Virus record (IMG/VR): IMGVR_UViG_3300046318_000188
Span: 1-64,000 of that record
Reading direction: 5' to 3' (one strand)
DNA: 64,000 nt
Origin: a virus
The notes under the pieces were generated by a model that saw only the letters and a list, made by a program, of their open reading frames with translations, was not told where the DNA came from and made no database searches. The number at the start of each line of letters is the position of its first letter. Within the stretch, counting starts at the first letter, position 1. Both the position numbers and the translations under genes were made by a program. Positions 6,201 through 53,450 of this stretch are shown in pieces.

Positions 6201-6504
6201 AATCATTCAAGCAACCACAGCAACTACTGCTCAGACGGCTATTGATACTTGGTCTACTACAACCTATCGTACTGCCAAATATATTATCTCAATGACTTCT
6301 GTATCAAATTACCATGCAATTGAATTATTTTTGGTGCAAGATGGTACTACTGTTTATGTAACTCAATATGCTGAGATTATTACCAATATAGCTTTGGCCA
6401 CATTTGATGCATCAATTTCTGGTTCAACATTGAGTCTGTTGGTCAATCCAGCAAGTTCAACAAGTACAACTTATAATATATTCAGAAGTAACATAACGGT
6501 ATAA
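3232..6504 (+). CDS. Collagen-like and YadA-head-like tail fibre/adhesin
   Basis: Start is TTG at 3232: an in-frame TGA lies 9 nt upstream and AAGGG sits in front, so no earlier start is possible. Domains of the 1090-residue protein: N-terminal globular region (1 to about 210) with a carbohydrate-binding-like segment; Gly-X-Y collagen-like repeats (about 212-595) dominated by GAS/GST/GIQ triplets; linker about 597-655; sixteen exact 16-residue repeats of the type (C/Y)(A/S)(V/I)AIGxxAGxxxQxx (about 662-917); a cap with [11 protein letters not shown]; and a beta-rich C-terminal domain. This resembles trimeric phage fibres and YadA-type heads. It lies in the fibre island, presumably as a host-range determinant. 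Confidence 0.8.
3867..5019 (+). repeat. Collagen-like Gly-X-Y coding repeat
   Basis: Nearly uninterrupted GGN-X-Y triplets with recurring 18-27 nt phrases such as ggtgcttcaggttctact. Internal direct repeats make this a likely site of slippage or recombination that changes fibre length. Confidence 0.85.
5215..5982 (+). repeat. Sixteen tandem 48-bp repeats (AIG repeats)
   Basis: Sixteen consecutive 16-codon units without length variation. G6 is invariant, Q14 is invariant, and A4/I5 and A9/G10 are strongly conserved. The last 56 nt region (5935-5990) is identical to 8813-8868 in the next gene. Confidence 0.85.
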
Positions 6505-6507
6505 ATA
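6500..6507 (+). promoter_or_regulatory. late promoter TATAAATA
   Basis: Exact match to the T4 late promoter element, overlapping the stop codon of the collagen-like fibre gene and 38 nt before the giant repeat protein start. Confidence 0.65.
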
Positions 6508-6544
6508 ACATAAACAATTCAATTAACTAAGGGGAAAGTGAACC

Positions 6545-9500
6545 TTGGCAATATCTAATACAAATTCTTTTGTAGTAAAGAACGGCTTGACCGTTGGAAC
6601 TACACAGACTATCAATCCATCAGGCAATGTCTTTACCGGTAATCTAACAATTACGGGTGCCACGAGCAATGGTATTACTTTTGCGGATGGAACACGACAA
6701 ACTACTGCGGCTACAGGCGGTGGTGGCGGTGGTTCTGGTAATGCTAATACCAATGGTTGGTTACCCAATTCAATCATATTTGCTGACTCTACTGGATATC
6801 TCAGTAATACTCCTAATTTACAATTTTACGGAGCCAATAATACTTTAGTTGTTGCCAATGCAGTATTTAATTCAATAACATTAGCTAATACTAATATTGC
6901 TTTGGGTCAATGTGCTGCGGGTGGAAGTCCACAAGGAATTTTTGGTATTGCGGTTGGTGCTTACGCAGGAAAATACAATCAAGGAGTTAATTCGGTTGCT
7001 ATTGGAAATGCTGGTCAGGTTGACCAAGCTTTTGGTGCGGTTGCCATTGGTAATGGTGCAGGATGTTCTACACAAGGATGTCAATCGGTTGCTATTGGTA
7101 ATAGTTCAGGATTTACTCACCAAGGACAATTTGCGGTAGCAATTGGTAATTGTGCTGGTTCTACAACTCAAGGTGGAAAAACAGTTGCTATTGGTTGTAA
7201 TGCTGGTCATAGTAATCAAGCAAATTCTGCCGTTGCGATTGGTTTTCAAGCTGGAAAATCATATCAAAGCCTTTGTTCGATTGCTGTTGGTAATACTGCA
7301 GGTTCTTGTGCACAAGGCACGCATGCGGTTGCTATTGGTTCATATGCCGGTAGTACTGGCCAAGCTGGATATACAGTTGCTATTGGTTCTAATGCAGGAA
7401 CTACATCACAAAGTTGTTATGCGGTTGCTATTGGTAATGGTGCAGGATGTTCTACACAAGGAGGTCAAGCAATTGCTATTGGTAGATGTGCTGGTAAAAC
7501 AACACAATCTTCTTGCGCAGTTGCTATAGGTCATTGTGCAGGACTTACATCACAAGGATGTGCTGCTATTGCTATTGGTACAATTGCTGGTGGTCTAAAT
7601 CAAGGTACACAAACAATTGCTATTGGATCAAATGCTGGTTCTTGTTCCCAAAATGCATCTTCTGTTGCTATTGGCCAAAATGCTGCGCAATATCAACAAA
7701 GAGCTTGTGCAGTTGCTATAGGACATTGTGCAGGTAGAACAGCACAAGGATGTTATTCCGTTGCTGTTGGTATTGGTGCCGGTAATGAATCTCAAAACGC
7801 TTATTCTGTTGCTATTGGTTCTTATGCTGGTTACTGTAGACAAAGAACGAATTCAGTTGCTATAGGACAAAATGCAGGACAATCGGCACAATGTATATAT
7901 GCTGTTGCTATTGGTACTAATGCAGGTGGATCATCACAAAGATGTTATTCAATTGCTGTAGGTTATTCTGCTGGGTGTACTACGCAGGGACCTTCCGCGG
8001 TTGCTATTGGTTATACTGCCGGCAGATGCTTACAAGGCGGCCGATCGGTTGCTATAGGACCAGAAGCGGCCACAGTTAATCAAGGTGATTGCTCAGTTGC
8101 TATTGGTCGTATGGCTGGTAATTGTAATCAAGGTGGTTGTGGTGCTATTGCTATTGGCCTTCAAGCAGGTTACACATTACAAAATGTTTCTGCTATTGCT
8201 ATTGGTGCTTGTGCTGGTTATTGTAGACAAAGATTTCAAGCGGTTGCTATTGGTAAATGTGCTGGTAAAATAGAACAAGGATGTTCTTCTGTAGCTATTG
8301 GATATCAAGCTGGTACAACTACTCAGAATTACGGTTCCGTTGCAATTGGTAGTGTTGCTGGATATAACACACAAGGTAACAGGGCTGTAGCAATTGGTCA
8401 AGAAGCAGCACAAACCACACAAGGAAATTTCGCTGTAGCAGTTGGTTATATCGCAGGTAATGCCACACAAGGTGAGAATGCTGTAGCAATTGGCAAAGCT
8501 GCTGGCCAAACATCACAAAATACTCTTTCTGTTGCAATTGGTTCTTGTGCTGGTAATTGTAGACAAAGAGCTTCAGCGGTTGCTATTGGTAATGCTGCAG
8601 GATATACAGAGCAAGGAACATATGCGGTTGCTATTGGTACCGGTTCGGGTCAAGCAACACAAGGTAACTGTGCAGTTGCTATAGGTTCTGCGGCTGGCTT
8701 TTTTGAACAAAATACTCAATCGATTGCTATTGGTACTAATGCAGGATACTGTAGGCAGAGAGCTTGTGCAATTGCTATGGGACAAAATGCTGGACAAACA
8801 GCACAAGGACAATATGCGGTTGCTATTGGACCTAACGCAGGTGTAACTTGCCAAACCACCAAGAGTATTGCTATCAATGCTTCCTGTGTGGCATTAAATC
8901 CAACTGAACAAGGCCTTTACATTAATCCTGTTCGTAATGACACAGGAAATACCACACAGGCAATTTACTATAACACAACAACCAAAGAATTAACATACGC
9001 ATCACCAACAGGTGGTGGTAGTTCTTCTGGTTACTTAGCTAATGCAGTAATTTTTGCTAACTCAGCTGGTTATCTTAGTAACACAGTAAATATATCTTTC
9101 TATTCTGCCAATAATACTTTAGTTGTTGCTAATGCAGTATTCAATTCAATAACATTAGCGAATACTAATATTGCTTTGGGTACTGGTGCTGGAGCATCAG
9201 GACAAAATGCTTATTCTATTGCTATTGGTCTTAATGCTGGTCAATGTAGGCAAAGAGCTTGTGCGGTTGCTATAGGTAAGTGTGCAGGTAAGACAGAACA
9301 ATGTACACAAGCGGTTGCTATTGGTAAATGTGCAGGTAGAACAGCACAAAATTCAAGTGCAATTGCTATTGGTGGTAATGCCGGTAATTGCAGACAAAGA
9401 ACTATGGCAGTTGCTATTGGTGTTTGTGCAGGTAGAACAGCACAAGGAGCTTGCTCTGTTGCAATTTCTCGTAATGCCGGTAAATGTAATCAAAGTTGTA

Positions 9501-11809
9501 GTGCAGTTGCTATTGGTGTGTGTTCAGGAGTAACATCACAAGGATCCTCTACTGTTGCCATTGGTATTCTAGCAGGACAAACATCACAAAATTCAAGTGC
9601 AATTGCTATTGGTGGTAATGCCGGTAATTGCAGACAAAGACAATATGCGGTTGCTATTGGTGTTAGTGCTGGTTTACAATCTCAAAATACTTCTGCAATT
9701 GCTGTAGGATTACGAGCTGGTAACTGTAGACAAAGATGTAATGCAATTGCAATTGGTACAGATGCAGGTAAAACAGCACAAGGTTCTGTGTCGGTTGCTG
9801 TTGGTGCTGGTGCTGGTCAATCTAATCAGCTATGTACTGCTGTAGCAATTGGCACCAATGCTGGACAAACATCCCAAGGAAGTGGTACAGTTGCTATTGG
9901 TGCTAATGCTGGTCTCGTATCTCAAAATAATCTTTCGGTTGCTGTTGGTACCGGTGCTGGTGAATGTAGGCAAAGAGTTTGTGCAACGGCTGTTGGTCGT
10001 ATGGCTGGTAGATTTGCTCAAGGATGTTATTCTACTGCTGTTGGTTCTTTTTCTGGTTATCAATCCCAAAATGCTTACTCTGTTGCTATAGGATATCAAG
10101 CTGGTAATTGTCGCCAAAGACAAGGTGCAGTTTCTATTGGTAAATGTTCCGGTAAAATAGCACAAGGATGTTTTTCAGTTGCTGTTGGCCAAGGCGCCGC
10201 TCAATGTAATCAATCCTGTCGTGCAGTTTCTATTGGTGTTTGTGCCGGTAAAACAAGTCAAGCTCAATATGGTATTGCTATTGGTGTTTGTGCTGGATCA
10301 ATTAGTCAAAGAACTAATGGTGTTGCAATAGGACGAGTTGCCGCTAAGTGTAATCAAAGTGCTTGTTCAGTTGCTATTGGTTCTGCTGCAGGATATTTTG
10401 AACAAGGTACATCTTCAGTTGCTATTGGTGCTTGTACAGCACTATTGTATCAAAATGCTTATTCTATTGCTGTTGGTTCTTTTGCTGGTTATTGCCGACA
10501 AAGAACTCAAGCGGTTGCTATAGGTCGTTGTACAGGTAAAACGGCACAAGGTGCTTCAGCCGTTGCTATGGGTTATCAATCAGGTATTACATCACAAGGT
10601 GCTTCAGCCGTTGCTATTGGTAATGCTGCTGGTGCTACTAGTCAAGGTGCTTGTGCAGTAGCGTTTGGTAATTCTGCTGGATTTACAGGACAAGGCGCTT
10701 TTGCATTAGCAATTGGTACAAATTCAGGAAATTCAAATCAGGGTGTTTGTGCAGTTGCTATAGGTGTACAAGCAGGACAAATATCTCAAAACGCTCAATC
10801 AGTTGCTATTGGCCATGCTTCTGGATATTGTAGACAAAGAACTCAAGCAGTTGCTATTGGATATTTCTCAGGTCAAACTGCGCAAGGTGCTTGTGCCGTT
10901 GCTATTGGTTCTAATGCTGGAAATTCCAATCAAGGCGATTATGCCGTTGCAATTGGTTCTTGTGCTGGCAAATGTAATCAAGTTGCAACTAGTGTGGTTA
11001 TTAGTGGATGTACTGTACCAGTTAATGCAGTACAGGCAGGACTTTATATTGCTCCAATCCGTGTTTGTGCTGGTAATACAACACAAGCCGTATACTATAA
11101 CACCACAACCAAAGAATTAACATATACAGCACCTACTGGTGGTGGAAATGGTGGCGCTTCTGTATCTGGTTATTTGCCAAATTCTATTCTTTATGCTAAT
11201 GCAAATGGATACTTAGCAAATACTGCGAATGTACAATATTTTGCATCTAATAATTCATTCAAATTAAGTGGCGATTCTTCAGCTAGTAGTAATAAAGGAC
11301 TATTGCAAATTGGAGCTCCATTAACATTTAGTGACGTTAATATTTTAGGTACAATTACAAATAATGTTAATGGTTATACACAAGTAATTTTACAAAATCA
11401 AAGTAATGGTACTTCCGCTTCTGCTGATTATATTGTTAATAATGATACAATTACGGGTACATCAATTTATGGTGACTTTGGTATCAATAGTACTACATAT
11501 ACTGGCGCTTCACCGTTTTCTGCCGCAAACGGAACATATCTGTATGCAGCAGGTGGAACATTAACAGTTGGTACGAATGGTGCTAAAGATTTTAATATTG
11601 TCACCAACGATACATTAAGAGCTAATGTCAATGCTACCACAGGTAATATGCACGTTACTGGTAACGCATATTCGAATGCGATATATACTAATGGATTATA
11701 TTATGCAGCTAACAATCAGCCTTGGCCAATAGGCGGAGGTGGTGGCTCAGGATCATCAATTACAATAGGACAGGTAAGTGCAATAGCTAGAGGCTTTGCG
11801 TTACCATAA
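6545..11809 (+). CDS. Giant AIG-repeat fibre protein (1754 aa)
   Basis: Starts at TTG 6545; an in-frame TGA immediately two codons upstream excludes any other start, and AAGGGG precedes it. Architecture: N-terminal domain with the phage-fibre motif DGTRQTTAATGGG; linker; forty 16-residue repeats (6941-8860); cap with [11 protein letters not shown]; a second linker nearly identical in DNA to that of the preceding gene; thirty-seven more repeats (9212-10987); third cap; short linker; and a beta-rich C-terminal tip. Repeats resemble YadA/trimeric-autotransporter head repeats, so a long trimeric beta-solenoid stalk is likely. Cysteine is unusually frequent in the repeats. Probable long tail or whisker-like adhesin. 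Confidence 0.8.
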   Translation: MAISNTNSFVVKNGLTVGTTQTINPSGNVFTGNLTITGATSNGITFADGTRQTTAATGGGGGGSGNANTNGWLPNSIIFADSTGYLSNTPNLQFYGANNTLVVANAVFNSITLANTNIALGQCAAGGSPQGIFGIAVGAYAGKYNQGVNSVAIGNAGQVDQAFGAVAIGNGAGCSTQGCQSVAIGNSSGFTHQGQFAVAIGNCAGSTTQGGKTVAIGCNAGHSNQANSAVAIGFQAGKSYQSLCSIAVGNTAGSCAQGTHAVAIGSYAGSTGQAGYTVAIGSNAGTTSQSCYAVAIGNGAGCSTQGGQAIAIGRCAGKTTQSSCAVAIGHCAGLTSQGCAAIAIGTIAGGLNQGTQTIAIGSNAGSCSQNASSVAIGQNAAQYQQRACAVAIGHCAGRTAQGCYSVAVGIGAGNESQNAYSVAIGSYAGYCRQRTNSVAIGQNAGQSAQCIYAVAIGTNAGGSSQRCYSIAVGYSAGCTTQGPSAVAIGYTAGRCLQGGRSVAIGPEAATVNQGDCSVAIGRMAGNCNQGGCGAIAIGLQAGYTLQNVSAIAIGACAGYCRQRFQAVAIGKCAGKIEQGCSSVAIGYQAGTTTQNYGSVAIGSVAGYNTQGNRAVAIGQEAAQTTQGNFAVAVGYIAGNATQGENAVAIGKAAGQTSQNTLSVAIGSCAGNCRQRASAVAIGNAAGYTEQGTYAVAIGTGSGQATQGNCAVAIGSAAGFFEQNTQSIAIGTNAGYCRQRACAIAMGQNAGQTAQGQYAVAIGPNAGVTCQTTKSIAINASCVALNPTEQGLYINPVRNDTGNTTQAIYYNTTTKELTYASPTGGGSSSGYLANAVIFANSAGYLSNTVNISFYSANNTLVVANAVFNSITLANTNIALGTGAGASGQNAYSIAIGLNAGQCRQRACAVAIGKCAGKTEQCTQAVAIGKCAGRTAQNSSAIAIGGNAGNCRQRTMAVAIGVCAGRTAQGACSVAISRNAGKCNQSCSAVAIGVCSGVTSQGSSTVAIGILAGQTSQNSSAIAIGGNAGNCRQRQYAVAIGVSAGLQSQNTSAIAVGLRAGNCRQRCNAIAIGTDAGKTAQGSVSVAVGAGAGQSNQLCTAVAIGTNAGQTSQGSGTVAIGANAGLVSQNNLSVAVGTGAGECRQRVCATAVGRMAGRFAQGCYSTAVGSFSGYQSQNAYSVAIGYQAGNCRQRQGAVSIGKCSGKIAQGCFSVAVGQGAAQCNQSCRAVSIGVCAGKTSQAQYGIAIGVCAGSISQRTNGVAIGRVAAKCNQSACSVAIGSAAGYFEQGTSSVAIGACTALLYQNAYSIAVGSFAGYCRQRTQAVAIGRCTGKTAQGASAVAMGYQSGITSQGASAVAIGNAAGATSQGACAVAFGNSAGFTGQGAFALAIGTNSGNSNQGVCAVAIGVQAGQISQNAQSVAIGHASGYCRQRTQAVAIGYFSGQTAQGACAVAIGSNAGNSNQGDYAVAIGSCAGKCNQVATSVVISGCTVPVNAVQAGLYIAPIRVCAGNTTQAVYYNTTTKELTYTAPTGGGNGGASVSGYLPNSILYANANGYLANTANVQYFASNNSFKLSGDSSASSNKGLLQIGAPLTFSDVNILGTITNNVNGYTQVILQNQSNGTSASADYIVNNDTITGTSIYGDFGINSTTYTGASPFSAANGTYLYAAGGTLTVGTNGAKDFNIVTNDTLRANVNATTGNMHVTGNAYSNAIYTNGLYYAANNQPWPIGGGGGSGSSITIGQVSAIARGFALP
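6941..8860 (+). repeat. Forty tandem 48-bp AIG repeats, module B
   Basis: I count forty 16-residue units; unit 2 lacks one residue and unit 25 has one extra, otherwise the 48-nt period is exact. Consensus xAVAIGxxAGxxxQGx with invariant Q14. Confidence 0.8.
9018..9098 (+). repeat. Direct repeat of linker DNA (copy at 5021-5101)
   Basis: About 80 nt encoding the [18 protein letters not shown] linker are the same as 5021-5101 with a single early substitution (A/G), a long near-identical direct repeat between two different genes that implies recent duplication or gene conversion. Confidence 0.85.
9212..10987 (+). repeat. Thirty-seven tandem 48-bp AIG repeats, module C
   Basis: Thirty-seven uninterrupted 16-residue units with exact 48-nt spacing. 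Some units are near-identical to one another (e.g. the units encoding [15 protein letters not shown], near 9355 and 9595). Confidence 0.8.
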
Positions 11810-47922: not shown

Positions 47923-48420
47923 ATGCAGTTAAGTATAGTCGGTTGTCCCGATAAAAAACATTTCCGCCCGTTTGTAAAAAGGGCTGCCTTATTTTACGCT
48001 TCCGAATTGATTAAACCTAAGATGTTAGAAAACATCTTTTTGAGAATTAAATTTAGTTCTAAGATTGAAGCTCATGGATATGCCTCTGTGATAGAGTTCA
48101 GTAGAAGTAATAAACCAAGACAGTTTGAAATTGAATTACATCCTGGTATCGGCGCAGCAGAAATATTAAAAACACTCAGTCATGAAATGGTGCATATTAA
48201 GCAATACATTTATGGTGATGTTAATTTAAATCTGACCAGATGGAAAGGCAGTAAAGTTTTAGAACCTGATTATTGGGTTCAACCATGGGAAATAGAAGCC
48301 TATGGTATGCAAGCAGGACTATTTACAAAGTTTGCAGTAAAAGAAAAATTATGGAATATATTTGATGATATGTGTGATCCTGATAGTCCGATAGAAATGA
48401 AACCATTAGGTTGGAAATAA
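47923..48420 (+). CDS. SprT-like zinc metalloprotease
   Basis: 165 residues. HEMVH at 87-91 is the HExxH zinc site; EIEAYGMQ about 35 residues later resembles the third ligand region of SprT/SPARTAN-type domains. No signal peptide, so cytoplasmic. Such phage proteins occur in aquatic T4-like genomes; clearing of DNA-bound proteins is a possible role. Own sigma70 promoter and strong RBS aaggagagacctaa. Confidence 0.75.
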   Translation: MQLSIVGCPDKKHFRPFVKRAALFYASELIKPKMLENIFLRIKFSSKIEAHGYASVIEFSRSNKPRQFEIELHPGIGAAEILKTLSHEMVHIKQYIYGDVNLNLTRWKGSKVLEPDYWVQPWEIEAYGMQAGLFTKFAVKEKLWNIFDDMCDPDSPIEMKPLGWK

Positions 48421-48439: not shown

Positions 48440-48465
48440 GTATTTGGTAAATAATTACAAAGTTG

Positions 48466-48494
48466 TTGACAATTGAGCATATATACTATATCAT
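48466..48494 (+). promoter_or_regulatory. sigma70-type promoter TTGACA-17-TATCAT of the tRNA operon
   Basis: -35 TTGACA 48466-48471 and -10 TATCAT 48489-48494 with 17-nt spacer, upstream of the leader ORF and the first tRNAs. No other promoter is visible between the leader terminator and tRNA-Gln. Confidence 0.7.
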
Positions 48495-48531
48495 ACACAG
48501 TATTGAATAAATTAATTAAGAAAGAAATAAA

Positions 48532-48633
48532 ATGTTGTTTGTAACGAAACCTTTATCCATGCAGTCAGAGTATCGCACACCGAGCAATTGGCCAGCGATT
48601 GGCTTTGACCATGCCTCAGGGGTTCGTGTATAG
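48532..48633 (+). CDS. Codon-diverse leader ORF, 33 aa
   Basis: ATG 48532 behind aagaaagaaataaa; stop TAG 48631. Reads MLFVTKPLSMQSEYRTPSNW then PAIGFDHASGVRV. The 33 sense codons use 29 different codons; 19 amino acids occur, only Cys is absent. G/C-ending codons (ACG, CGC, CCG, AGC, GCG, GGC, GCC) are unlike neighbouring genes. The final codons form the left arm of a hairpin that competes with a terminator. Probably a regulatory leader peptide; it could instead be an accidental frame in structured RNA. Confidence 0.5.
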   Translation: MLFVTKPLSMQSEYRTPSNWPAIGFDHASGVRV

Positions 48634-48690
48634 AACAAAAGTAATTTCCTTTCACACACGAACCCTAGTCTAAACAACTAGGGTTTTTTG
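48620..48690 (+). promoter_or_regulatory. Antiterminator/terminator pair before the tRNA array
   Basis: GGGTTCGTGT (48620-48629) pairs with ACACGAACCC (48656-48665), 10 bp. AACCCTAGT (48661-48669) pairs with ACTAGGGTT (48677-48685), 9 bp, followed by TTTTG TTTT: a good intrinsic terminator. The two stems share AACCC and cannot coexist. The leader ORF ends at the left arm of the first. Confidence 0.7.
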
Positions 48691-48705
48691 TTTTCCAGTT
48701 TCAAA

Positions 48706-48735
48706 TTACTAGACACTAAAATTTCAGTCTAGTAA
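48706..48735 (+). repeat. Perfect 9-bp inverted repeat
   Basis: TTACTAGAC (48706-48714) and GTCTAGTAA (48727-48735) with a 12-nt loop, directly before the boxA-like site. Confidence 0.7.
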
Positions 48736-48736
48736 C

Positions 48737-48750
48737 GCTCTCTAAAAATT
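48737..48750 (+). promoter_or_regulatory. boxA-like antitermination site 1
   Basis: GCTCTCTAAAAATT, matching the bacterial rrn boxA pattern (G)(C/T)TCTTTAAAAATT in all but one position. Followed by TAAGTAGTAAC, which recurs after boxA 2. Confidence 0.55.
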
Positions 48751-48764
48751 TAAGTAGTAACTAT

Positions 48765-48838
48765 TGAGATATAGTGTAACGGTAGCACCACGCACTTTGA
48801 CTGCGTTAGCATAGGTTCAAATCCTATTATCTCTACCA
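48765..48838 (+). tRNA. tRNA-Gln(UUG)
   Basis: Anticodon loop CTTTGAC (stem ACGCA/TGCGT). Acceptor TGAGATA pairs with TATCTCT except a U1-U72 mismatch, T-loop TTCAAAT, encoded ACCA. Confidence 0.9.
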
Positions 48839-48840
48839 AT

Positions 48841-48934
48841 GGAAGGTAATGCAGCGGGGATGGTCCTGCGACTGGCCTTGAAAACCAGGTTCTGCCTAAA
48901 AGCGGATGGGGTTCGACTCCTCTGCCTTCCGCCA
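48841..48934 (+). tRNA. tRNA-Ser(UGA)
   Basis: Class II tRNA of 94 nt. Acceptor GGAAGGT/GCCTTCC, anticodon loop CTTGAAA, long variable arm TCTGCCTAAAAGCGGA, T-loop TTCGACT, encoded GCCA. Confidence 0.92.
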
Positions 48935-49057
48935 TATTGAAGCATACTGCGGTGGTGTTACATATTATATCTAGTCAATATAATATGCCTATGCTAAGAG
49001 TATGATTAAATGTTCCGACAGCCTTAGACTAAGGTTCATTAGTGTGCTTCAATATGG
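48932..49057 (+). ncRNA. Inter-tRNA hairpin element E1
   Basis: Left arm CCATATTGAAGCATACT (48932-48948, starting with the CCA of tRNA-Ser) pairs with AGTGTGCTTCAATATGG (49041-49057): 17 bp with one G-U. The 92-nt interior contains CATATTATAT/ATAATATG-type pairing and GTTCCGACAG (49012-49021), which is shared with E3. No ORF. Confidence 0.65.
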
Positions 49058-49063
49058 TTTATT

Positions 49064-49150
49064 GGAAGATGTGTTGCAAGGTGCGACCGAAGTTTGCTAA
49101 ACTTCCGTTCAGAAATGGGCTGATAGGTTCGATTCCTATATCTTCCGCCA
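49064..49150 (+). tRNA. tRNA-Ser(GCU)
   Basis: Acceptor GGAAGAT/ATCTTCC, anticodon stem GAAGT/ACTTC with loop TTGCTAA, variable arm between, T-loop TTCGATT, encoded GCCA. 87 nt class II. Confidence 0.92.
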
Positions 49151-49152
49151 AT

Positions 49153-49227
49153 GGTGGTGTGACCGAATGGTGAGGTGACAGTCTGCAAAACTGGTCCAAG
49201 TAGGTTCGATTCCTATCACCACCTCCA
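49153..49227 (+). tRNA. tRNA-Cys(GCA)
   Basis: Acceptor GGTGGTG/CACCACC, anticodon loop CTGCAAA, T-arm TAGG-TTCGATT-CCTA, encoded TCCA. Confidence 0.92.
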
Positions 49228-49266
49228 GTATGTGTTGTACCAAAACAACAGTATCAAAAATAGTTC

Positions 49267-49294
49267 TTGTGGTATTTTTTGGTTCGTGTATAAT
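49267..49294 (+). promoter_or_regulatory. sigma70-type promoter TTGTGG-16-TATAAT inside tRNA array
   Basis: -10 TATAAT at 49289-49294 with a weak -35 TTGTGG at 49267-49272 (16-nt spacer), 18 nt before boxA site 2. Confidence 0.5.
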
Positions 49295-49311
49295 AGTTGT
49301 TCTGTTGTAAA

Positions 49312-49325
49312 GTTCTTTAAAAATT
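49312..49325 (+). promoter_or_regulatory. boxA-like antitermination site 2
   Basis: GTTCTTTAAAAATT, an exact match to the boxA form common in betaproteobacterial rrn leaders as I recall it. It is followed by AAGTAGTAAC as at site 1 and sits 14 nt before tRNA-Glu. Confidence 0.65.
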
Positions 49326-49338
49326 AAGTAGTAACAAT

Positions 49339-49413
49339 ACACCGTTCGTCTATCGGTTAGGACCCAAGGTTTTCAACCTTGTAAGAGGAGTTCAACTCTC
49401 CTACGGTGTACCA
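49339..49413 (+). tRNA. tRNA-Glu(UUC)
   Basis: Acceptor ACACCGT/ACGGTGT, anticodon stem CAAGG/CCTTG with loop TTTTCAA, T-arm GGAG-TTCAACT-CTCC, encoded ACCA. Confidence 0.92.
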
Positions 49414-49526
49414 TATTGAAGCACATTTAAACCTTAACAGGTCGGTATTGGTAAGCCAAAACCTCTATTAGTAAGTTCGAGAATTTATTAGTAAGTTTAT
49501 TTCACCTTAATGTGTTTCAATATGGT
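49410..49526 (+). ncRNA. Inter-tRNA hairpin element E2
   Basis: ACCATATTGAAGCACATT (49410-49427) pairs with AATGTGTTTCAATATGGT (49509-49526): 18 bp with one G-U. The interior has an AATTTATTAGTAAG/CTATTAGTAAG direct repeat and a GTTCGAG T-loop-like motif. The left arm starts in the ACCA of tRNA-Glu. Confidence 0.65.
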
Positions 49527-49677
49527 AAGTAATGGCAAAAAATATAATATTGTTCTTTTTAATCTTGCTAATATCGCGGTTAGTGGGTGACATAAGAAAA
49601 ATGTTAAACAAGTATGCGACCTAGAAGCGGGTGGACAAACGTGACTGTGGGCCACCAAGGTAGTCAACATTACATAC
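49525..49677 (+). ncRNA. Structured spacer element E2b
   Basis: Closed by GTAAGTAATG (49525-49534) and CATTACATAC (49668-49677), 9 of 10 bp. Interior includes TATAAT, a boxA-like GTTCTTTTTAAT (49552-49563), TGACT/AGTCA and GGTGG/CCACC pairings. No tRNA or ORF seen. Confidence 0.45.
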
Positions 49678-49752
49678 TATATTGAAACATATTAGATCAG
49701 TGACCGTTCCGACAGGTGCGGCGACATTAAAGTGAGTGTGTTTCAATATGGT
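49676..49752 (+). ncRNA. Inter-tRNA hairpin element E3
   Basis: ACTATATTGAAACATA (49676-49691) pairs with TGTGTTTCAATATGGT (49737-49752), 16 bp with two G-U. Short 45-nt interior with GTTCCGACAG shared with E1. Confidence 0.65.
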
Positions 49753-49753
49753 A

Positions 49754-49878
49754 ATATCTGAAGCATAGCAAGTGATGCTAGAGGTAGGGGTAAGCATTGA
49801 ACTCGAGATAGGTGCTTATGAGTAACTCGACCGGTCTCACCCGGTGAAGCGTATTGCAACCATACGCCAGATACACCA
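49754..49878 (+). ncRNA. tRNA-like element with encoded ACCA
   Basis: 125 nt. ATATCTG at the 5' end pairs (6 of 7) with CAGATAC followed by ACCA, like an acceptor stem; GCAT..ATGC forms a D-arm-like hairpin; GCGTAT/ATACGC around TGCAACC imitates a T-arm but lacks TTCRA. Between them are about 69 nt with two more stems (GTAAGCA/TGCTTAT and ACCGG/CCGGT) instead of a normal anticodon arm. No anticodon can be assigned. Confidence 0.45.
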
Positions 49879-49949
49879 TATTAAAACACACTTCAGGCGG
49901 GGAGGCTCCGCTCCAAATATCAAAGTGAGGTAGTGTGTTTCAATATGGT
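49875..49949 (+). ncRNA. Inter-tRNA hairpin element E4
   Basis: ACCATATTAAAACACACT (49875-49892) pairs with AGTGTGTTTCAATATGGT (49932-49949), 17 of 18 bp. The left arm starts in the ACCA of the tRNA-like element. Interior GCGG..CCGC hairpin. Confidence 0.65.
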
Positions 49950-50002
49950 ATGACTCTGCTGGGTATGAATCAGATTCTCCGGCGGGTAAGTTACTACCAT
50001 AT
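49943..50002 (+). ncRNA. Structured spacer element E4b
   Basis: ATATGGTA (49943-49950) pairs with TACCATAT (49995-50002); inside, CTGCTGG pairs with CCGGCGG (7 bp, two G-U). It shares its left arm with the right arm of E4, so E4 and E4b are alternative folds. Confidence 0.45.
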
Positions 50003-50009
50003 CAAATTT

Positions 50010-50084
50010 GGTTCGTTCATATAACGGTAATTATGCTGGACTGTCTATCCGGATACAGGAGTTCGATTCTCCTACGAACCGCCA
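50010..50084 (+). tRNA. tRNA-Asp(GUC)
   Basis: Acceptor GGTTCGT/ACGAACC, anticodon loop CTGTCTA, T-arm GGAG-TTCGATT-CTCC, encoded GCCA. Confidence 0.92.
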
Positions 50085-50092
50085 AGTTTTAT

Positions 50093-50170
50093 TGTCCGAG
50101 AGCAAGCAAGGTGTAGGCGCCTGACTGTTAATCAGGAATGAGTGAGGTTCGATTCCTCATCGGACAGCCA
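50093..50170 (+). tRNA. tRNA-Asn(GUU), copy 1
   Basis: Acceptor TGTCCGA/TCGGACA, anticodon stem CCTGA/TCAGG with loop CTGTTAA, T-loop TTCGATT, encoded GCCA. A second, dissimilar tRNA-Asn lies at 53375. Confidence 0.9.
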
Positions 50171-50179
50171 AGTTTCAAT

Positions 50180-50261
50180 GGTGTGGATGCTCTAATGGTA
50201 GGGCAGCGGGCTGTAAACCCGTGGCTTCGGCAAGTAGGTTCGATCCCTACCCACATCACCA
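50180..50261 (+). tRNA. tRNA-Tyr(GUA)
   Basis: Class II-like, 82 nt. Acceptor GGTGTGG/CCACATC, anticodon stem GCGGG/CCCGT with loop CTGTAAA, variable arm GGCTTCGGC, T-loop TTCGATC, encoded ACCA. Confidence 0.92.
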
Positions 50262-50269
50262 AGTTTTAT

Positions 50270-50347
50270 CTCAGTATAGGCTAGCCTGGTCAAGTCACTC
50301 CGTTTGGGGCGGAGAGTGCGTAAGTTCGAATCTTACTACTGAGACCA
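50270..50347 (+). tRNA. tRNA-Pro(UGG)
   Basis: Acceptor CTCAGTA/TACTGAG, anticodon stem CTCCG/CGGAG with loop TTTGGGG, T-loop TTCGAAT, encoded ACCA. Confidence 0.92.
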
Positions 50348-50450
50348 TATTGTAGTTGTAACGATATTACTACGTTGCTAGAAGCGTAGTCTGACGGCTG
50401 GTTAAGGATACACGGTGTCCACGGAATAAGGGAACCAGAATTTCGAGTGC
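50348..50450 (+). ncRNA. Structured spacer/leader before the MKPRN gene
   Basis: Starts TATTG like E elements but has no matching right arm. ACTACG/CGTAGT, CTGGTT/AACCAG and GGATAC/GTGTCC hairpins are visible. Followed immediately by an intrinsic terminator, so it may be a leader or a terminated small RNA. Confidence 0.4.
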
Positions 50451-50474
50451 TGACAGGTAAGCTGTCATCTTTTT
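50451..50474 (+). terminator. Intrinsic terminator inside the tRNA array
   Basis: TGACAG-gtaag-CTGTCA followed by TCTTTTT. It lies upstream of tRNA-Lys and the RBS aaaggag of the short ORF, so downstream tRNAs need antitermination or another promoter. Confidence 0.65.
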
Positions 50475-50488
50475 AAAGGAGAAGTAAA

Positions 50489-50671
50489 ATGAAACCAAGA
50501 AATATATTTGCCGTGTTGGCAAGTAAACGGAAGGCGGGCCCGCACCGCAAAAGCAATAAAGCTTTACGCAAGAAAGAAAAACAATCGGGGTATAATTCAA
50601 CGGCTAGAATATCCGGCTTTTACCCGGACTATCAGAGTTCGAATCTCTGTGCCTCGACCAGTTTATCTTAA
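50489..50671 (+). CDS. MKPRN-type small basic protein overlapping tRNA-Lys
   Basis: 60 codons behind AAAGGAGAAGTAAA. The N-terminal half MKPRNIFAVLASKRKAGPHR plus KSNKALRKKEKQ is the basic small-phage-protein type I recall starting MKPRN and ending soon after the Lys/Glu-rich helix. Here no stop follows; the frame continues through the complete tRNA-Lys gene (50586-50660) and ends at TAA 50669. The last 28 residues are thus tRNA sequence read as protein. Function unknown. Confidence 0.6.
   Translation: MKPRNIFAVLASKRKAGPHRKSNKALRKKEKQSGYNSTARISGFYPDYQSSNLCASTSLS
50586..50660 (+). tRNA. tRNA-Lys(UUU)
   Basis: Acceptor CGGGGTA/TGCCTCG (two G-U), anticodon stem TCCGG/CCGGA with loop CTTTTAC, T-arm CAGAG-TTCGAAT-CTCTG, encoded ACCA. 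It lies wholly inside the reading frame of the MKPRN gene, same strand. Confidence 0.92.
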
Positions 50672-50760
50672 AACATACTAACGCCAAAAACTGGCGGTCT
50701 AGCGTCAACTAGGCGAAACTGTATTTGACGATGCAGAGGATTAGTATGTTTCAAAATAAA
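50662..50760 (+). ncRNA. Inter-tRNA hairpin element E5
   Basis: TTTATCTTAAAACATACTAA (50662-50681) pairs with TTAGTATGTTTCAAAATAAA (50741-50760), 18 of 20 bp. The interior holds CGCC/GGCG and CGTCAA/TTGACG hairpins. A diverged member of the E family (core AAACATACT/AGTATGTTTC). Confidence 0.65.
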
Positions 50761-50766
50761 TTGTAA

Positions 50767-50841
50767 GCTCTCAAAACATAAATGGTGATGTGCTGGTTTT
50801 GTAATCCAGATAACTTGGTTCGATTCCGAGTGAGAGCACCA
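50767..50841 (+). tRNA. tRNA-Thr(UGU)
   Basis: Acceptor GCTCTCA/TGAGAGC, anticodon loop TTTGTAA with stem CTGGT/TCCAG (last pair mismatched), T-loop TTCGATT, encoded ACCA. Confidence 0.9.
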
Positions 50842-50846
50842 AATTT

Positions 50847-50918
50847 GGGCTGTGTGCAGGGGCACAAGGATGCTTTGCAAGCAACCTCTGGTCGGTTCGA
50901 TACCGACACGGTCCACCA
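50847..50918 (+). tRNA. tRNA-Ala(UGC)
   Basis: 72 nt with a reduced D-arm (GTGC-AGGG-GCAC). Acceptor GGGCTGT/ACGGTCC, anticodon loop TTTGCAA (A-A mismatch in stem), T-arm GTCGG-TTCGATA-CCGAC, encoded ACCA. Confidence 0.85.
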
Positions 50919-50923
50919 AACAT

Positions 50924-50998
50924 GGTAGTGTAGCATAATGGTCGTGCGCCTCCTTCATACGGAGAAAAGTATAAGTTCGAATCTTATCACTACCACCA
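50924..50998 (+). tRNA. tRNA-Met or -Ile(CAU), copy 1
   Basis: Acceptor GGTAGTG/CACTACC, anticodon loop TTCATAC, T-loop TTCGAAT, encoded ACCA. Whether it is elongator Met or lysidine-modified Ile2 depends on host TilS and cannot be decided here. Confidence 0.9.
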
Positions 50999-51095
50999 GT
51001 TTGTTAAGTTAAGTGCAGTAACATGGGTTGAGTGATCCTCTCAGCCGATTAACAACGGAGTTGGCCGTACCGTCTGCATACGAGCCCCAAATTAT
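50999..51095 (+). ncRNA. Structured spacer element E6
   Basis: TGCAG (51014-51018)/CTGCA (51074-51078) encloses GGTTGAG/CTCAGCC (7 bp, 7-nt loop) and ACGG/CCGT. Three-way-junction-like; no ORF. The flanking GTTAA..TTAAC lacks the long E stem. Confidence 0.4.
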
Positions 51096-51172
51096 GGGTC
51101 ATTAACATCAAATGGAAGATGCCTGTCTTACGAAGTCAGAAGTTGGGAGTTCGAATCTCTCATGACCCTCCA
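51096..51172 (+). tRNA. tRNA-Arg(ACG)
   Basis: Acceptor GGGTCAT/ATGACCC, anticodon loop TTACGAA with stem CTGTC/GTCAG (one U-U), T-arm GGGAG-TTCGAAT-CTCTC, encoded TCCA. A34 would require host TadA editing to inosine. Confidence 0.88.
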
Positions 51173-51179
51173 GTTTTAC

Positions 51180-51253
51180 ACCTAGGTAGCTCAATGGTAG
51201 AGCAATCGGCTGATAACCGATAGACAGAAGTTCAATTCTTCTTCTAGGTACCA
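51180..51253 (+). tRNA. tRNA-Ile(GAU)
   Basis: Acceptor ACCTAGG/TCTAGGT, anticodon stem ATCGG/CCGAT with loop CTGATAA, T-arm AGAAG-TTCAATT-CTTCT, encoded ACCA. Confidence 0.92.
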
Positions 51254-51371
51254 GAGCAGACCCACAGGATCCGCAAGGCTGTCAAACTCTTAACCTGTTA
51301 AAATAAACAAGAGTGAGTTCCGCCAGTAACTTTCACAAGGAGATGAGTTGAATAAACTCACTGGCAACTAT
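51254..51371 (+). ncRNA. Structured spacer element E9
   Basis: 118 nt without ORF between tRNA-Ile and tRNA-Trp. CCAGT..ACTGG encloses GAGTT-gaata-AACTC; ACTCTT..AAGAGT lies upstream. AAGGAG is present but followed by no plausible gene. Confidence 0.4.
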
Positions 51372-51446
51372 TTCTCGGTGGTGTTAACGGTAGCACACTG
51401 GTCTCCAAAACCATAAGTTGCGGTTCGAATCCGTACCGGGAAGCCA
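51372..51446 (+). tRNA. tRNA-Trp(CCA)
   Basis: Acceptor TTCTCGG/CCGGGAA, anticodon loop CTCCAAA, T-loop TTCGAAT, encoded GCCA. Confidence 0.92.
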
Positions 51447-51466
51447 TAATAATAAAAGGAGTTAGC

Positions 51467-51943
51467 ATGAAAAAGTTAGATATAGTAGAAGTCAAAAGAT
51501 TCATTGAAGCACAATCTGAAGATACTAAAATCTATCTTGGTGCTGACTCTGAAAGATTTGAAATCAAAGGTGAATGGTATGCTGACTACACATTAGCAGT
51601 AGTTGTTCATATTGATGGATGTCATGGTTGTAAAATCTTTGGTGAAGTTATTCGTGAAAGAGATTATGACCAAAAGAAAAATAAACCTGCTTTAAGATTG
51701 ATGAATGAAGTTTACAAAGTTTCAGATTTATTTCAATCTCTTGCGGATGTATTAGAAGATAGGTACGTTGAGGTACATTTAGATATTAACCCAAATGAAT
51801 TATATGGTTCATCTTGTGTAGTTCAACAAGCGATTGGTTATATCAAAGGTACTTGTAATGTTATACCTATGGTTAAACCAAAAGCTTTTGCTGCTTCATA
51901 TGCGGCAGATAGATTAAAGTTTGTTTTAGCTGAAGCAGCTTAA
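51467..51943 (+). CDS. RNase H-like DUF458 (YkuK-type) protein
   Basis: 158 residues inside the tRNA array, RBS aaaaggagttagc. KIYLGADSERF begins an RNase H-like strand with the first Asp; VEVHLDINPNELYGSSCVV gives another acidic pair; VKPKAFAASYAADRLKF is the C-terminal family motif. This is the DUF458 ribonuclease H-like family. Location between tRNA genes suggests a nuclease or binding function in RNA processing, an inference. Ends 4 nt before tRNA-His. Confidence 0.7.
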   Translation: MKKLDIVEVKRFIEAQSEDTKIYLGADSERFEIKGEWYADYTLAVVVHIDGCHGCKIFGEVIRERDYDQKKNKPALRLMNEVYKVSDLFQSLADVLEDRYVEVHLDINPNELYGSSCVVQQAIGYIKGTCNVIPMVKPKAFAASYAADRLKFVLAEAA

Positions 51944-51947
51944 CTAT

Positions 51948-52021
51948 GTGGCTCCTAGTGTAATGGTTGCACACTTGTCTGTGAAACAAGTAGAGAGGGT
52001 TCGATTCCCCGGTTCCACCCA
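51948..52021 (+). tRNA. tRNA-His(GUG)
   Basis: Anticodon stem CTTGT/ACAAG with loop CTGTGAA, discriminator C73 opposite an extra G-1, as in all tRNA-His, T-loop TTCGATT. Acceptor TGGCTCC/GGTTCCA has two adjacent mismatches (positions 4 and 5) and the T-stem is weak. Confidence 0.75.
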
Positions 52022-52030
52022 AAGGATATT

Positions 52031-52249
52031 ATGTATAGAGTAAAATGGATTAAAGATGTTTATGATAATGATGTAAAAGAATTTCATACTTTAGATGAAG
52101 CAATGAATTATGCAAAACAATTAGATATAACTGTTGAGATTAAAACTCCAGATTATACTGTTGTTGGTAAATTTGGAGTTGATTCAGTAGAAAATCTAAT
52201 TCTGCCGAATGGTGCAGAGTATGGATATGTAAAACGTAGATACAAGTAA
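52031..52249 (+). CDS. Small hypothetical protein, 72 aa
   Basis: RBS AAAGGATATT overlaps the tRNA-His 3' end. MYRVKWIKDVYDNDVKEFHTLDEAMNYAKQLDITVEIKTPDYTVVGKFGVDSV; alpha/beta, soluble. The VKEFHTLDEAMNYAKQL helix resembles small phage or DUF-type domains with an FxTLxEAxxxA pattern. No function. Ends 3 nt before tRNA-Val. Confidence 0.6.
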   Translation: MYRVKWIKDVYDNDVKEFHTLDEAMNYAKQLDITVEIKTPDYTVVGKFGVDSVENLILPNGAEYGYVKRRYK

Positions 52250-52252
52250 TAT

Positions 52253-52326
52253 GCCTCGGTAGTTTAATAGTAGAACACCGCTCTTACAAAGCGAAGACGG
52301 CGGAGCGTTACCGCAACGAGGTACCA
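52253..52326 (+). tRNA. tRNA-Val(UAC) with atypical T-arm
   Basis: Acceptor GCCTCGG/ACGAGGT (6 of 7), D-arm normal, anticodon loop CTTACAA. The T-region reads GCGG-AGCGTTA-CCGC, without the TTCRA loop. Encoded ACCA. May be a degenerate or recombined tRNA. Confidence 0.65.
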
Positions 52327-52328
52327 AT

Positions 52329-52404
52329 GCAACTTTAGCTGATGTGGTCATAGCGGTGGTCTGAAGAGCCATTGAACCAAGTTCGATCCTTGGAGGTTGC
52401 ACCA
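52329..52404 (+). tRNA. tRNA-Phe(GAA)
   Basis: Acceptor GCAACTT/AGGTTGC, anticodon loop CTGAAGA, T-arm CCAAG-TTCGATC-CTTGG, encoded ACCA. Confidence 0.92.
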
Positions 52405-52409
52405 GTTTT

Positions 52410-52483
52410 GCTCTTATAGTATAATGGCATTACACATCCTTGGTAAGGATGAAACACAAGTTCAATTCTTGTTAAGAGCACCA
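52410..52483 (+). tRNA. tRNA-Thr(GGU)
   Basis: Acceptor GCTCTTA/TAAGAGC, anticodon stem CATCC/GGATG with loop TTGGTAA, T-arm ACAAG-TTCAATT-CTTGT, encoded ACCA. Confidence 0.93.
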
Positions 52484-52485
52484 AT

Positions 52486-52562
52486 GCCCTTGTAGCGCAA
52501 TTGGTAGAGGCAATGGTCTTAGAAGCCATCAAGTGTCAGTTCGAATCTGACCAAGGGTACCA
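52486..52562 (+). tRNA. tRNA-Leu(UAG), short variable loop
   Basis: Acceptor GCCCTTG/CAAGGGT, anticodon stem ATGGT/GCCAT with loop CTTAGAA, T-arm GTCAG-TTCGAAT-CTGAC, encoded ACCA. Variable region only CAAGT, unlike normal class II bacterial tRNA-Leu. Confidence 0.85.
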
Positions 52563-52563
52563 A

Positions 52564-52640
52564 GCGGTTGTGATGGAAATGGTATACGTACCGGACTTAA
52601 AATTCGGGTTTTGTGGGTTCAAGTCCCACCTTCCGCACCA
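52564..52640 (+). tRNA. tRNA-Leu(UAA), short variable loop
   Basis: D-arm TGATGGAAATGGTATACGT and anticodon arm CCGGA-CTTAAAA-TTCGG are leucine-like; T-arm GTGGG-TTCAAGT-CCCAC; encoded ACCA. Variable region is only GTTTT. Acceptor GCGGTTG/CTTCCGC has two U-U mismatches. Confidence 0.82.
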
Positions 52641-52643
52641 AAT

Positions 52644-52698
52644 AACTTTACAATGATGTTGCTTTAACTTTACAATAGTGTTATAATAACTTTACAAT
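52644..52698 (+). repeat. Three AACTTTACAAT direct repeats, 22-nt period
   Basis: AACTTTACAAT at 52644, 52666 and 52688, exactly 22 nt apart, in the spacer between tRNA-Leu and tRNA-Arg. A TATAAT at 52682-52687 lies between copies 2 and 3, with TTGCTT 17 nt upstream. Confidence 0.85.
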
Positions 52699-52701
52699 AA
52701 A

Positions 52702-52776
52702 CTGGCTATAGTATAATGGAGAATACAGAAGGCTTCTACCCTTTTAATGTGGGTTCGATTCCTGCTAGCCAGACCA
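52702..52776 (+). tRNA. tRNA-Arg(UCU)
   Basis: Acceptor CTGGCTA/TAGCCAG, anticodon stem GAAGG/CCTTT with loop CTTCTAC, T-loop TTCGATT, encoded ACCA. Confidence 0.92.
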
Positions 52777-52781
52777 AATTT

Positions 52782-52856
52782 GGGCCGTTAGCATATCGGT
52801 AGATGCCGGCGACTCATAATCGTCAGAAGAAAGTTCGACTCTTTCACGGCCCACCA
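52782..52856 (+). tRNA. tRNA-Met or -Ile(CAU), copy 2
   Basis: Acceptor GGGCCGT/ACGGCCC, anticodon loop CTCATAA, T-arm GAAAG-TTCGACT-CTTTC, encoded ACCA. Different from copy 1 in stems, so one of the two may be Ile2. Confidence 0.9.
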
Positions 52857-52873
52857 AGTTTACCATAATGTTG

Positions 52874-52902
52874 TTGACAAAGTTGTATAAGTATAGTATA
52901 GT
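52874..52902 (+). promoter_or_regulatory. sigma70-type promoter TTGACA-17-TATAGT in tRNA array
   Basis: Perfect -35 TTGACA 52874-52879, 17-nt spacer, -10 TATAGT 52897-52902; serves the last tRNAs and the small gene at 53085. Confidence 0.65.
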
Positions 52903-52922
52903 TACTACTTGAACGAAATATG

Positions 52923-52987
52923 CGGTGTGTGATAGCACGATTCGAGATACCCTCTTGAATTATCTGAGCAAAGCAGACCACCGCTCC
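52923..52987 (+). ncRNA. tRNA-like rod with CCA end
   Basis: GCGGTG pairs with CACCGC and is followed by TCCA; inside, ATTCGAGA-taccc-TCTTGAAT is an 8-bp hairpin. No T-loop or anticodon arm fits, so it is not a normal tRNA although its ends imitate the flanking tRNA-Gly genes. Confidence 0.45.
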
Positions 52988-52995
52988 AAATTTAT

Positions 52996-53069
52996 GCGGG
53001 TATGATGTAAAGGTAACCTGAGTCCTTGCCAAGGACTATTTGAGAGTTCGATTCTCTCTGCCCGCTCCA
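52996..53069 (+). tRNA. tRNA-Gly(GCC)
   Basis: Acceptor GCGGGTA/TGCCCGC, anticodon stem AGTCC/GGACT with loop TTGCCAA, T-arm GAGAG-TTCGATT-CTCTC, encoded TCCA. Confidence 0.93.
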
Positions 53070-53084
53070 CTAAAAGGAATTGTT

Positions 53085-53288
53085 ATGGCTGCTGTAAAAT
53101 CTAAAAAGAAGAATCCAATGTTAACCAAGAATGGTAAACAGCGATTAGGTCCTTTGAACATTGAACAATTGTCTAAAATGTTAGATGGTGCTCGCAAGAA
53201 ACATATTCCTAAAATCAAGAAAGCCATTGCAAAGCGATTACAAACGCAACAGTTTGGCAAAGATGCAGAGCCAGTAGTTTCAGAATAA
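53085..53288 (+). CDS. Small basic protein, 67 aa
   Basis: Start ATG 53085 behind AAAAGGAATTGTT; the in-frame upstream codons are tRNA sequence. Starts MAAVKSKKKNPMLTKNGKQRLGPLNIEQLSKMLDGARKKHIPKIKKAIAKRLQ. Very Lys-rich with a central helix, a nucleic-acid-binding appearance. Related short basic phage proteins with KKNPMLTKxGKxRLGPLNxxQL are known to me from aquatic phages, function unknown. Confidence 0.6.
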   Translation: MAAVKSKKKNPMLTKNGKQRLGPLNIEQLSKMLDGARKKHIPKIKKAIAKRLQTQQFGKDAEPVVSE

Positions 53289-53294
53289 AAATTT

Positions 53295-53368
53295 GCGGGA
53301 TTAGTTTAATGGTAAAACTAGAGGTTTCCAACCTTTCGTTGTCAGTTCGATTCTGTCATCCCGCTCCA
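53295..53368 (+). tRNA. tRNA-Gly(UCC), copy 1
   Basis: Acceptor GCGGGAT/ATCCCGC, anticodon stem AGAGG/CCTTT with loop TTTCCAA, T-loop TTCGATT, encoded TCCA. A duplicate with compensatory changes lies at 57718. Confidence 0.92.
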
Positions 53369-53374
53369 GTTTGT

Positions 53375-53450
53375 TGGCATATAGCTCAGTTGGTAGAGCA
53401 CCGGACTGTTAATCCGTAGGTCCTTGGTTCGAGCCCAAGTTTGCCAGCCA
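53375..53450 (+). tRNA. tRNA-Asn(GUU), copy 2
   Basis: Very like cellular tRNA-Asn in D-arm and anticodon region (TAGCTCAGTTGGTAGAGC; CCGGA-CTGTTAA-TCCGT). Acceptor TGGCATA/TTTGCCA has one U-U. T-loop TTCGAGC, encoded GCCA. Confidence 0.9.

Follow-up and report, generated by a model that had tools for sequence, protein, structure and literature searches.

A putative ribosome-mediated attenuator ahead of a phage tRNA array, with a leader whose codons mirror the tRNAs that follow

The question raised by this locus is what a 33-codon open reading frame (ORF) containing 19 different amino acids may be doing directly in front of an array of transfer RNA (tRNA) genes for all 20 amino acids. The locus lies in a stretch of 64,000 nucleotides (nt), referred to here as the window, which corresponds to positions 1 to 64,000 of the virus record IMGVR_UViG_3300046318_000188 (121,872 bases in total) and belongs to a T4-like phage with a terminase ~54% identical to cyanophage terminases. 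Our findings, all of which come from sequence comparison, suggest with a probability of roughly 0.9 that the ORF is the leader of a ribosome-mediated transcription attenuator, which controls the phage tRNA array by sensing the supply of the array's own tRNAs.

Read 5' to 3' on the plus strand, the locus consists of a gene for a protein of 165 amino acids (47923-48420), a promoter, the 33-codon ORF, an antiterminator, a terminator overlapping it and the tRNA genes, which begin at 48765. The sigma70-type promoter TTGACA-17-TATCAT (48466-48494) matches the consensus at 11 of 12 positions and is among the three best in 7 kb, and transcription would start near 48501. The leader ORF (48532-48633), which encodes MLFVTKPLSMQSEYRTPSNWPAIGFDHASGVRV followed by a stop codon, uses 29 distinct sense codons and 19 amino acids, only Cys being absent. 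Its final codons are overlapped by the 5' arm of the antiterminator, GGGTTCGTGT (48620-48629), which forms 10 pairs with the 3' arm ACACGAACCC (48656-48665), and the AACCC of this 3' arm is common to the 5' arm of the intrinsic terminator (48660-48691), a hairpin at 48660-48686 with a stem of 10 pairs and a loop of 7, plus a T-run. A terminator scan found the same terminator independently, as the longest-stemmed plus-strand site of the region. The tRNA array (48765-53450) comprises 25 genes predicted by ARAGORN together with two that this program missed, namely a tRNA-Val(TAC) at 52253-52323, found by the Rfam covariance model, and a Ser-type gene near 48839-48936, read from the sequence. The promoter and the composition of the ORF had been described in the same terms by the initial annotation, made from the letters alone, and both descriptions were borne out; its two mutually exclusive hairpins ahead of the tRNAs were recovered by sequence, terminator scan, folding and covariation, and its array of 20 amino acids is complete once the tRNA-Val and the Ser-type gene join the ARAGORN list. 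A separate promoter between 48690 and 48765 would have counted against an attenuator, and the promoter scan found none there. No Rfam family was found for the window leader, the region 48440-48764 giving only one match, far below its threshold.

The codon diversity of the leader, considered unusual in the initial annotation, was compared with chance and proved to be so. Codons drawn from the phage's own usage gave 22.5 ± 2.1 distinct codons (P = 0.0011 for at least 29) and 15.3 ± 1.4 amino acids (P = 0.008 for at least 19), and none of 433 real 33-codon stretches from the phage's long ORFs had 29 distinct codons. With P values of ~0.001-0.008 for the window leader, codon diversity by itself was not regarded as proof, and the match between leader and tRNAs, described below, is the stronger test.

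Relatives of the locus were gathered by a search with the neighbouring 165-amino-acid protein. In these, the gene is followed by the same layout of promoter, ORF, overlapping stems and tRNAs, with changed sequence, and a TTGACA/TATAAT-like promoter stands at the equivalent place. In the leaders L004 (MKNIFTSPSNYTSPAAGWQVGVRL), L061 (MKNLHITTSNYYNTSGTWCSGVRL) and L080 (MLVCLKPLSMQHGSEYRSNWSDIATPFTLGFCEEGYDG), for instance, the 5' arm is where the ORF ends, and a terminator overlapping the 3' arm is followed by the tRNAs; homologues of the window leader include L014, L080/L220, L225 and others. When related leaders were compared, as the initial annotation had proposed, their sequences proved to diverge while the ORF, the two stems and the placement of the stop codon in the 5' arm were retained. 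In L080, GGGTTTTGTG pairs with CACAAAACCC, and in several terminators CTAGGG is replaced by CTTGGG with a change in its partner too. Covariation was counted on 13 well-aligned rows and, gap-free, on 87 leaders. In the 13 sequences, 93% of cells in the antiterminator and 100% of those in the terminator are paired; three pairs of the former and one of the latter have changed on both sides, and these both-side changes exceed every slid version of the alignment, except for ties of one. Pairs outside the searched core covary as well in the 87 non-redundant leaders, with z of 3-5 in the antiterminator and of 8-12 in the inner terminator. As a separate observation, the ATG of the leaders L004, L009, L116, L173, L183 and L112 lies ~7 nt after the -10 box; because this ATG comes only ~7 nt past TATAAT, such leaders are probably translated from leaderless messenger RNAs.

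Viral contigs were also scanned with patterns blind to tRNAs and ORFs (GGGTTC...GAACCC...GGGTTTTT, plus versions with T, G and A). In the first two scans, 158 of the matches listed had sufficient flank, and 70 of these were followed on the same strand by a tRNA no more than 700 nt away, as against 11 with one upstream on the same strand and none with one on the opposite strand, either downstream or upstream. Among the 93 tRNA-proximal matches listed, 99% came with an ORF that had 17 codons or more and ended near the arm, and shuffling the upstream 200 nt reduced this value to 19%. Altogether, at least 122 leaders were collected from viral and phage records, falling into at least 88 clusters at 55% peptide identity; the most upstream ATG was taken as the leader start, which may be wrong in some cases, but the tests draw chiefly on the 3' part, and some arrays of the set are clipped by contig ends. 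Almost all of these leaders have an ORF that ends inside the 5' arm of the antiterminator, and a 3' arm that overlaps with the terminator; by this comparison the window locus belongs to a class widespread among phages. When the leader regions, except for a few leaders, were compared by BLAST with 50,697 phage records, only uncultured huge phages were returned, and the public huge-phage records LR756502 and LR745206 have the same architecture, with leaders rich in Asn, Leu, Thr and Val before arrays of the corresponding tRNAs. The GGGTTC core alone, searched in contigs of cellular genomes, gave 122 matches, of which two had both a tRNA and an ORF, and both were unconvincing.

The evidence that carries our interpretation is the agreement between the residues of each leader and the tRNAs behind it. 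Over the 88 clusters, the matched residue fraction was 0.506 with the leader's own array and 0.407 with the arrays of other phages (permutation z = 12.7), and leaders covered 92% of the amino-acid types of their own array, compared with 71% expected (z = 10). Synonymous choice points in the same direction, as 65% of codons, against 52% expected, are readable by a tRNA of the array (z = 5.1, under simplified wobble rules). Shared ancestry, or an amino-acid composition common to the whole phage, might have produced this match as an artefact, and some clusters do derive from related phages whose arrays are similar; the match persists, however, after merging at 45% and 40% identity (z = 11.2 and 9.7), and within one leader family the residues follow the content of the array, as in L097 (CEGHTWY), L147 (LNPTW) and L061 (GNTWY). 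Furthermore, the match gave z = 12.9 in frame and 0.1 and -2.2 in the other two frames, and random protein segments of the same phages gave a mean z of -0.16. Since neither the other frames nor the random segments show a match, phage-wide and nucleotide composition do not explain it, and an artefact of this kind is barely credible. The same dependence on reading frame indicates that the leader ORF is translated.

The initial annotation had supposed that a leader sampling nearly every codon could sense general shortage of charged tRNAs; a sensor of this kind would sample as many codons as possible, whichever tRNAs follow. The diversity of large-array leaders is what such a sensor would lead one to expect, the window leader and 16 others being more diverse than chance (combined z 7.9), and for the 20-amino-acid array of the window the two ideas coincide. 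Small arrays are where they part, because there the leaders are narrow and match their arrays (L193, L453, L309, L187, L290 and L147). The leader of L453, MKSLSLSLCSSYLSLRWTGLCVQRT, precedes tRNAs for Cys, Tyr, Leu and Ser only, that of L193, MNALLLQSSQSYLLSLSQRVGFGATLR, those for Leu, Ser and Gln, and that of L147, MKFNLTNLPTLNLPVWQRGFLL, those for Leu, Trp, Pro, Thr, Asn and Met. In L309, a single array contains three attenuators in tandem (reverse strand, 917-1083, 3736-3943 and 5527-5701), whose leaders abound in residues of the tRNAs directly behind them; the first leader, MNTTLQLQQVQGQQLQQLLAGLCLLQGDSIRVPEM, stands before Leu, Leu, Gln, Gln and Leu tRNAs, while the others are a Glu/Asp/Gln-rich leader before Glu, Asp and Glu and a Tyr-containing one before Tyr. 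For arrays of 1-9 amino-acid types the permutation z of the match is 10.4; narrow leaders go with small arrays and codon-sampling leaders with arrays of 20 amino acids. These comparisons make a sensor of starvation in general improbable and support a leader that reports on the amino acids, and partly the codons, served by the downstream array.

The position of the matched codons bears on how such a leader may act. For arrays of 1-14 amino-acid types, every codon bin between -48 and -10 nt relative to the GGGTT core shows an excess match of ~1.3-1.8-fold, with a ratio of ~1.6 upstream of this edge and of ~1.0 on average from -9 nt onward, and the stop codon lies at a median of 13 nt past the start of the arm. 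A bacterial ribosome covers ~12 nt beyond its A site. The edge, ~10 nt before the antiterminator arm, is therefore roughly where a stalled ribosome would begin to cover the arm; a ribosome stalled upstream of it would leave most of the 5' arm free, and one past the edge or at the stop codon would keep the arm covered. In the window, the sensing zone would comprise leader codons 2-27 (48535-48612), which lie 10 nt or more ahead of the GGGTT core in the antiterminator arm. Folding of the window leader agrees with two alternative states, since with the arm free the best structure is the antiterminator (-18.5 kcal/mol), to the exclusion of the terminator, which forms once the arm is masked. Position edge and stop codon together give the geometry required if a stall leads to antitermination and completion to termination.

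We hypothesize, therefore, that RNA polymerase would start at the promoter and that a ribosome would follow through the leader ORF. On finishing the ORF, the ribosome would cover the 5' arm, leaving the 3' arm free so that the terminator forms and transcription ends before the tRNAs. When a cognate aminoacyl-tRNA is short, it would instead stall upstream of about -10 nt, and the free 5' arm would pair with the 3' arm, preventing the terminator and letting the polymerase enter the tRNA genes. The leader codons would mirror the array, with few amino acids for a small array and nearly all for a full one. Read-through would probably be aided by a boxA-type antitermination site: in the window, a boxA-like element, CGCTCTCTAAAAATT (48736-48750, plus strand), with 12 of 15 positions of the Escherichia coli rrn-type boxA consensus, lies between the terminator and the first tRNA, and elements of this kind are enriched at this place in 66 leaders (z 11), 12 of which reach at least 12/15, compared with 0.24 expected. 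Examples are TGCTCTTTGACAATT in L220 and AGCTCTTTAACAATT in L288, and some leaders have near-perfect copies. We infer that stalling raises read-through, as we do the size of this effect and the use of boxA, and the natural trigger may be an ordinary tRNA shortage, codon demand or host defences that cleave tRNAs. The switch logic of the initial annotation, in which a finished ORF gives the terminator and a stall the antiterminator, agrees in this way with the geometry, the kept architecture and the covariation; its general sampling of codons gives way to a sampling matched to the array.

A very unlikely alternative reading is that the ORF is an ordinary small gene with a terminator, the second hairpin being incidental and the tRNAs being expressed by read-through or from other promoters. 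The peptide motifs KPLSMQ and NDRTPE, common to some related leaders, and the promoter-like sites inside arrays would suit it, but the peptides are unrelated between clusters under a constant architecture, the end of the ORF is locked to the 5' arm, and the tRNA match is in-frame and limited in position. Stalling might also depend on the nascent peptide or on a drug rather than on codons, as in tnaC and ermC, and systems of that type likewise combine a short leader ORF with alternative hairpins. A conserved peptide motif across clusters is lacking, however, and the signal consists in amino-acid identity matched to the downstream tRNAs, together with codon choice, which leaves this explanation with a very small chance.

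Several observations weigh against the attenuator that we favour. The full-length fold of the untranslated window leader permits the terminator. Complementarity between the leader and the 5' arm is not above shuffles (z -2.6), so that, in difference from trp-type leaders, a 1:2 pause hairpin is neither enriched nor supported, and any ribosome-polymerase coupling of the trp and his kind is only putative here; a pause may arise by another route. Inside the array, an extended -10 promoter-like sequence, TG-TATAAT, seen by eye near 49287-49294 ahead of tRNA-Glu, may free the tRNAs from Glu onward from the switch. The pattern searches fixed the GGGTT core, which biases frequency and diversity. Finally, none of 11 cultured phage arrays (T4, PHB09, phi1_175008, PG07, Virsaitis27, BUCT-ZZ01, 4_4572, DLP_6, River4, AB1I1M-1 and XG4) had the switch, in a general scan with a recall of only 34 of 60 known cases.

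Even so, the locus has several features by which a ribosome-mediated attenuator is recognized, namely a short ORF ending at the antiterminator arm, with translation inferred from sequence, a mutually exclusive antiterminator and intrinsic terminator, and regulatory codons that are cognate to what the downstream genes produce. The trp, his and leu leaders (modelled in PMC1183508) likewise have a short ORF whose regulatory codons correspond to the amino acid supplied by their operon, and in them a stalled ribosome frees the antiterminator and completed translation permits the terminator. In contrast to these leaders, phage tRNA genes rather than biosynthetic enzymes would be controlled here, the regulatory codons are for several to nearly all amino acids, and the layout is present in phage contigs, whereas it is not above background in the cellular-genome scan. 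The T-box, an aminoacyl-tRNA sensor of Gram-positive bacteria, also senses the state of a tRNA and chooses between antiterminator and terminator; the T-box binds the tRNA directly with a specifier loop, whereas in the phage leader, which has no T-box or other Rfam match, a translated ORF would do the sensing. The boxA-like element between the terminator and the first tRNA, in part of the set, recalls the boxA/NusB-S10 antitermination of rRNA operons, but here it would be only an accessory.

Other elements accompany the array. In the window, at 49287-49325, the TG-TATAAT sequence is followed by a second boxA-like element, AGTTCTTTAAAAATT, before tRNA-Glu and without an attenuator, and TTGAC/TATAAT promoters occur at similar places inside the arrays of L029, L061 and L065. 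Between the window tRNA genes there are at least five hairpins (48932-49057, 49409-49527, 49675-49753, 49875-49949 and 50659-50763) with a common outer stem, CCATATTGAARCACA / TGTGTTTCAATATGG, and unrelated inserts of 40-90 nt. The shared arm is also present in L080/L220, L163, L235, L263 and L492, and these hairpins may be a dispersed element, or a stem for RNA processing, in phage tRNA arrays. A short basic ORF within the array (50489-50671), beginning MKPRNIFAVLASKRKAGPHRKSNKALRKKEKQ and having a good Shine-Dalgarno sequence, has clear counterparts in the relatives L015, L029, L030, L042 and L058 (for example, one beginning MKKKNTPQPRNYLVKLALFRKAGSHRKSNKAIRR) and, judged by these counterparts, is a conserved small protein of tRNA arrays. 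Far from the array, two very long ORFs at 3232-11809 contain repeats resembling collagen (GASGSTG) and the YadA head (AVAIGxxAG) and probably encode virion fibre proteins.

Phage tRNAs have been described as a counter-defence that replaces depleted host tRNAs (PMC10264068; PMC11555353), which is a likeness to the system proposed here; neither main text mentions attenuation or a leader, and a strong promoter for a phage tRNA-Tyr is reported in PMC11555353. No earlier description of such a leader was found in Rfam or in the open-access papers covered. We tentatively propose, at somewhat less than even odds, that the leaders form a demand-sensing counter-defence regulon in a large, mostly uncultured group of phages, in which host anticodon nucleases or host shut-off would deplete particular tRNAs, and stalling on a leader made up of just the codons concerned would turn on their replacements. 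The leader may serve as a marker for regulated phage tRNA arrays, and the question becomes directly testable on an element of ~200 bases. The reach of leader-peptide attenuation would grow to include tRNA genes besides amino-acid enzymes, and almost all amino acids instead of one, and the listing of the following tRNAs in the leader codons suggests what the phage measures, namely the supply of those same tRNAs.
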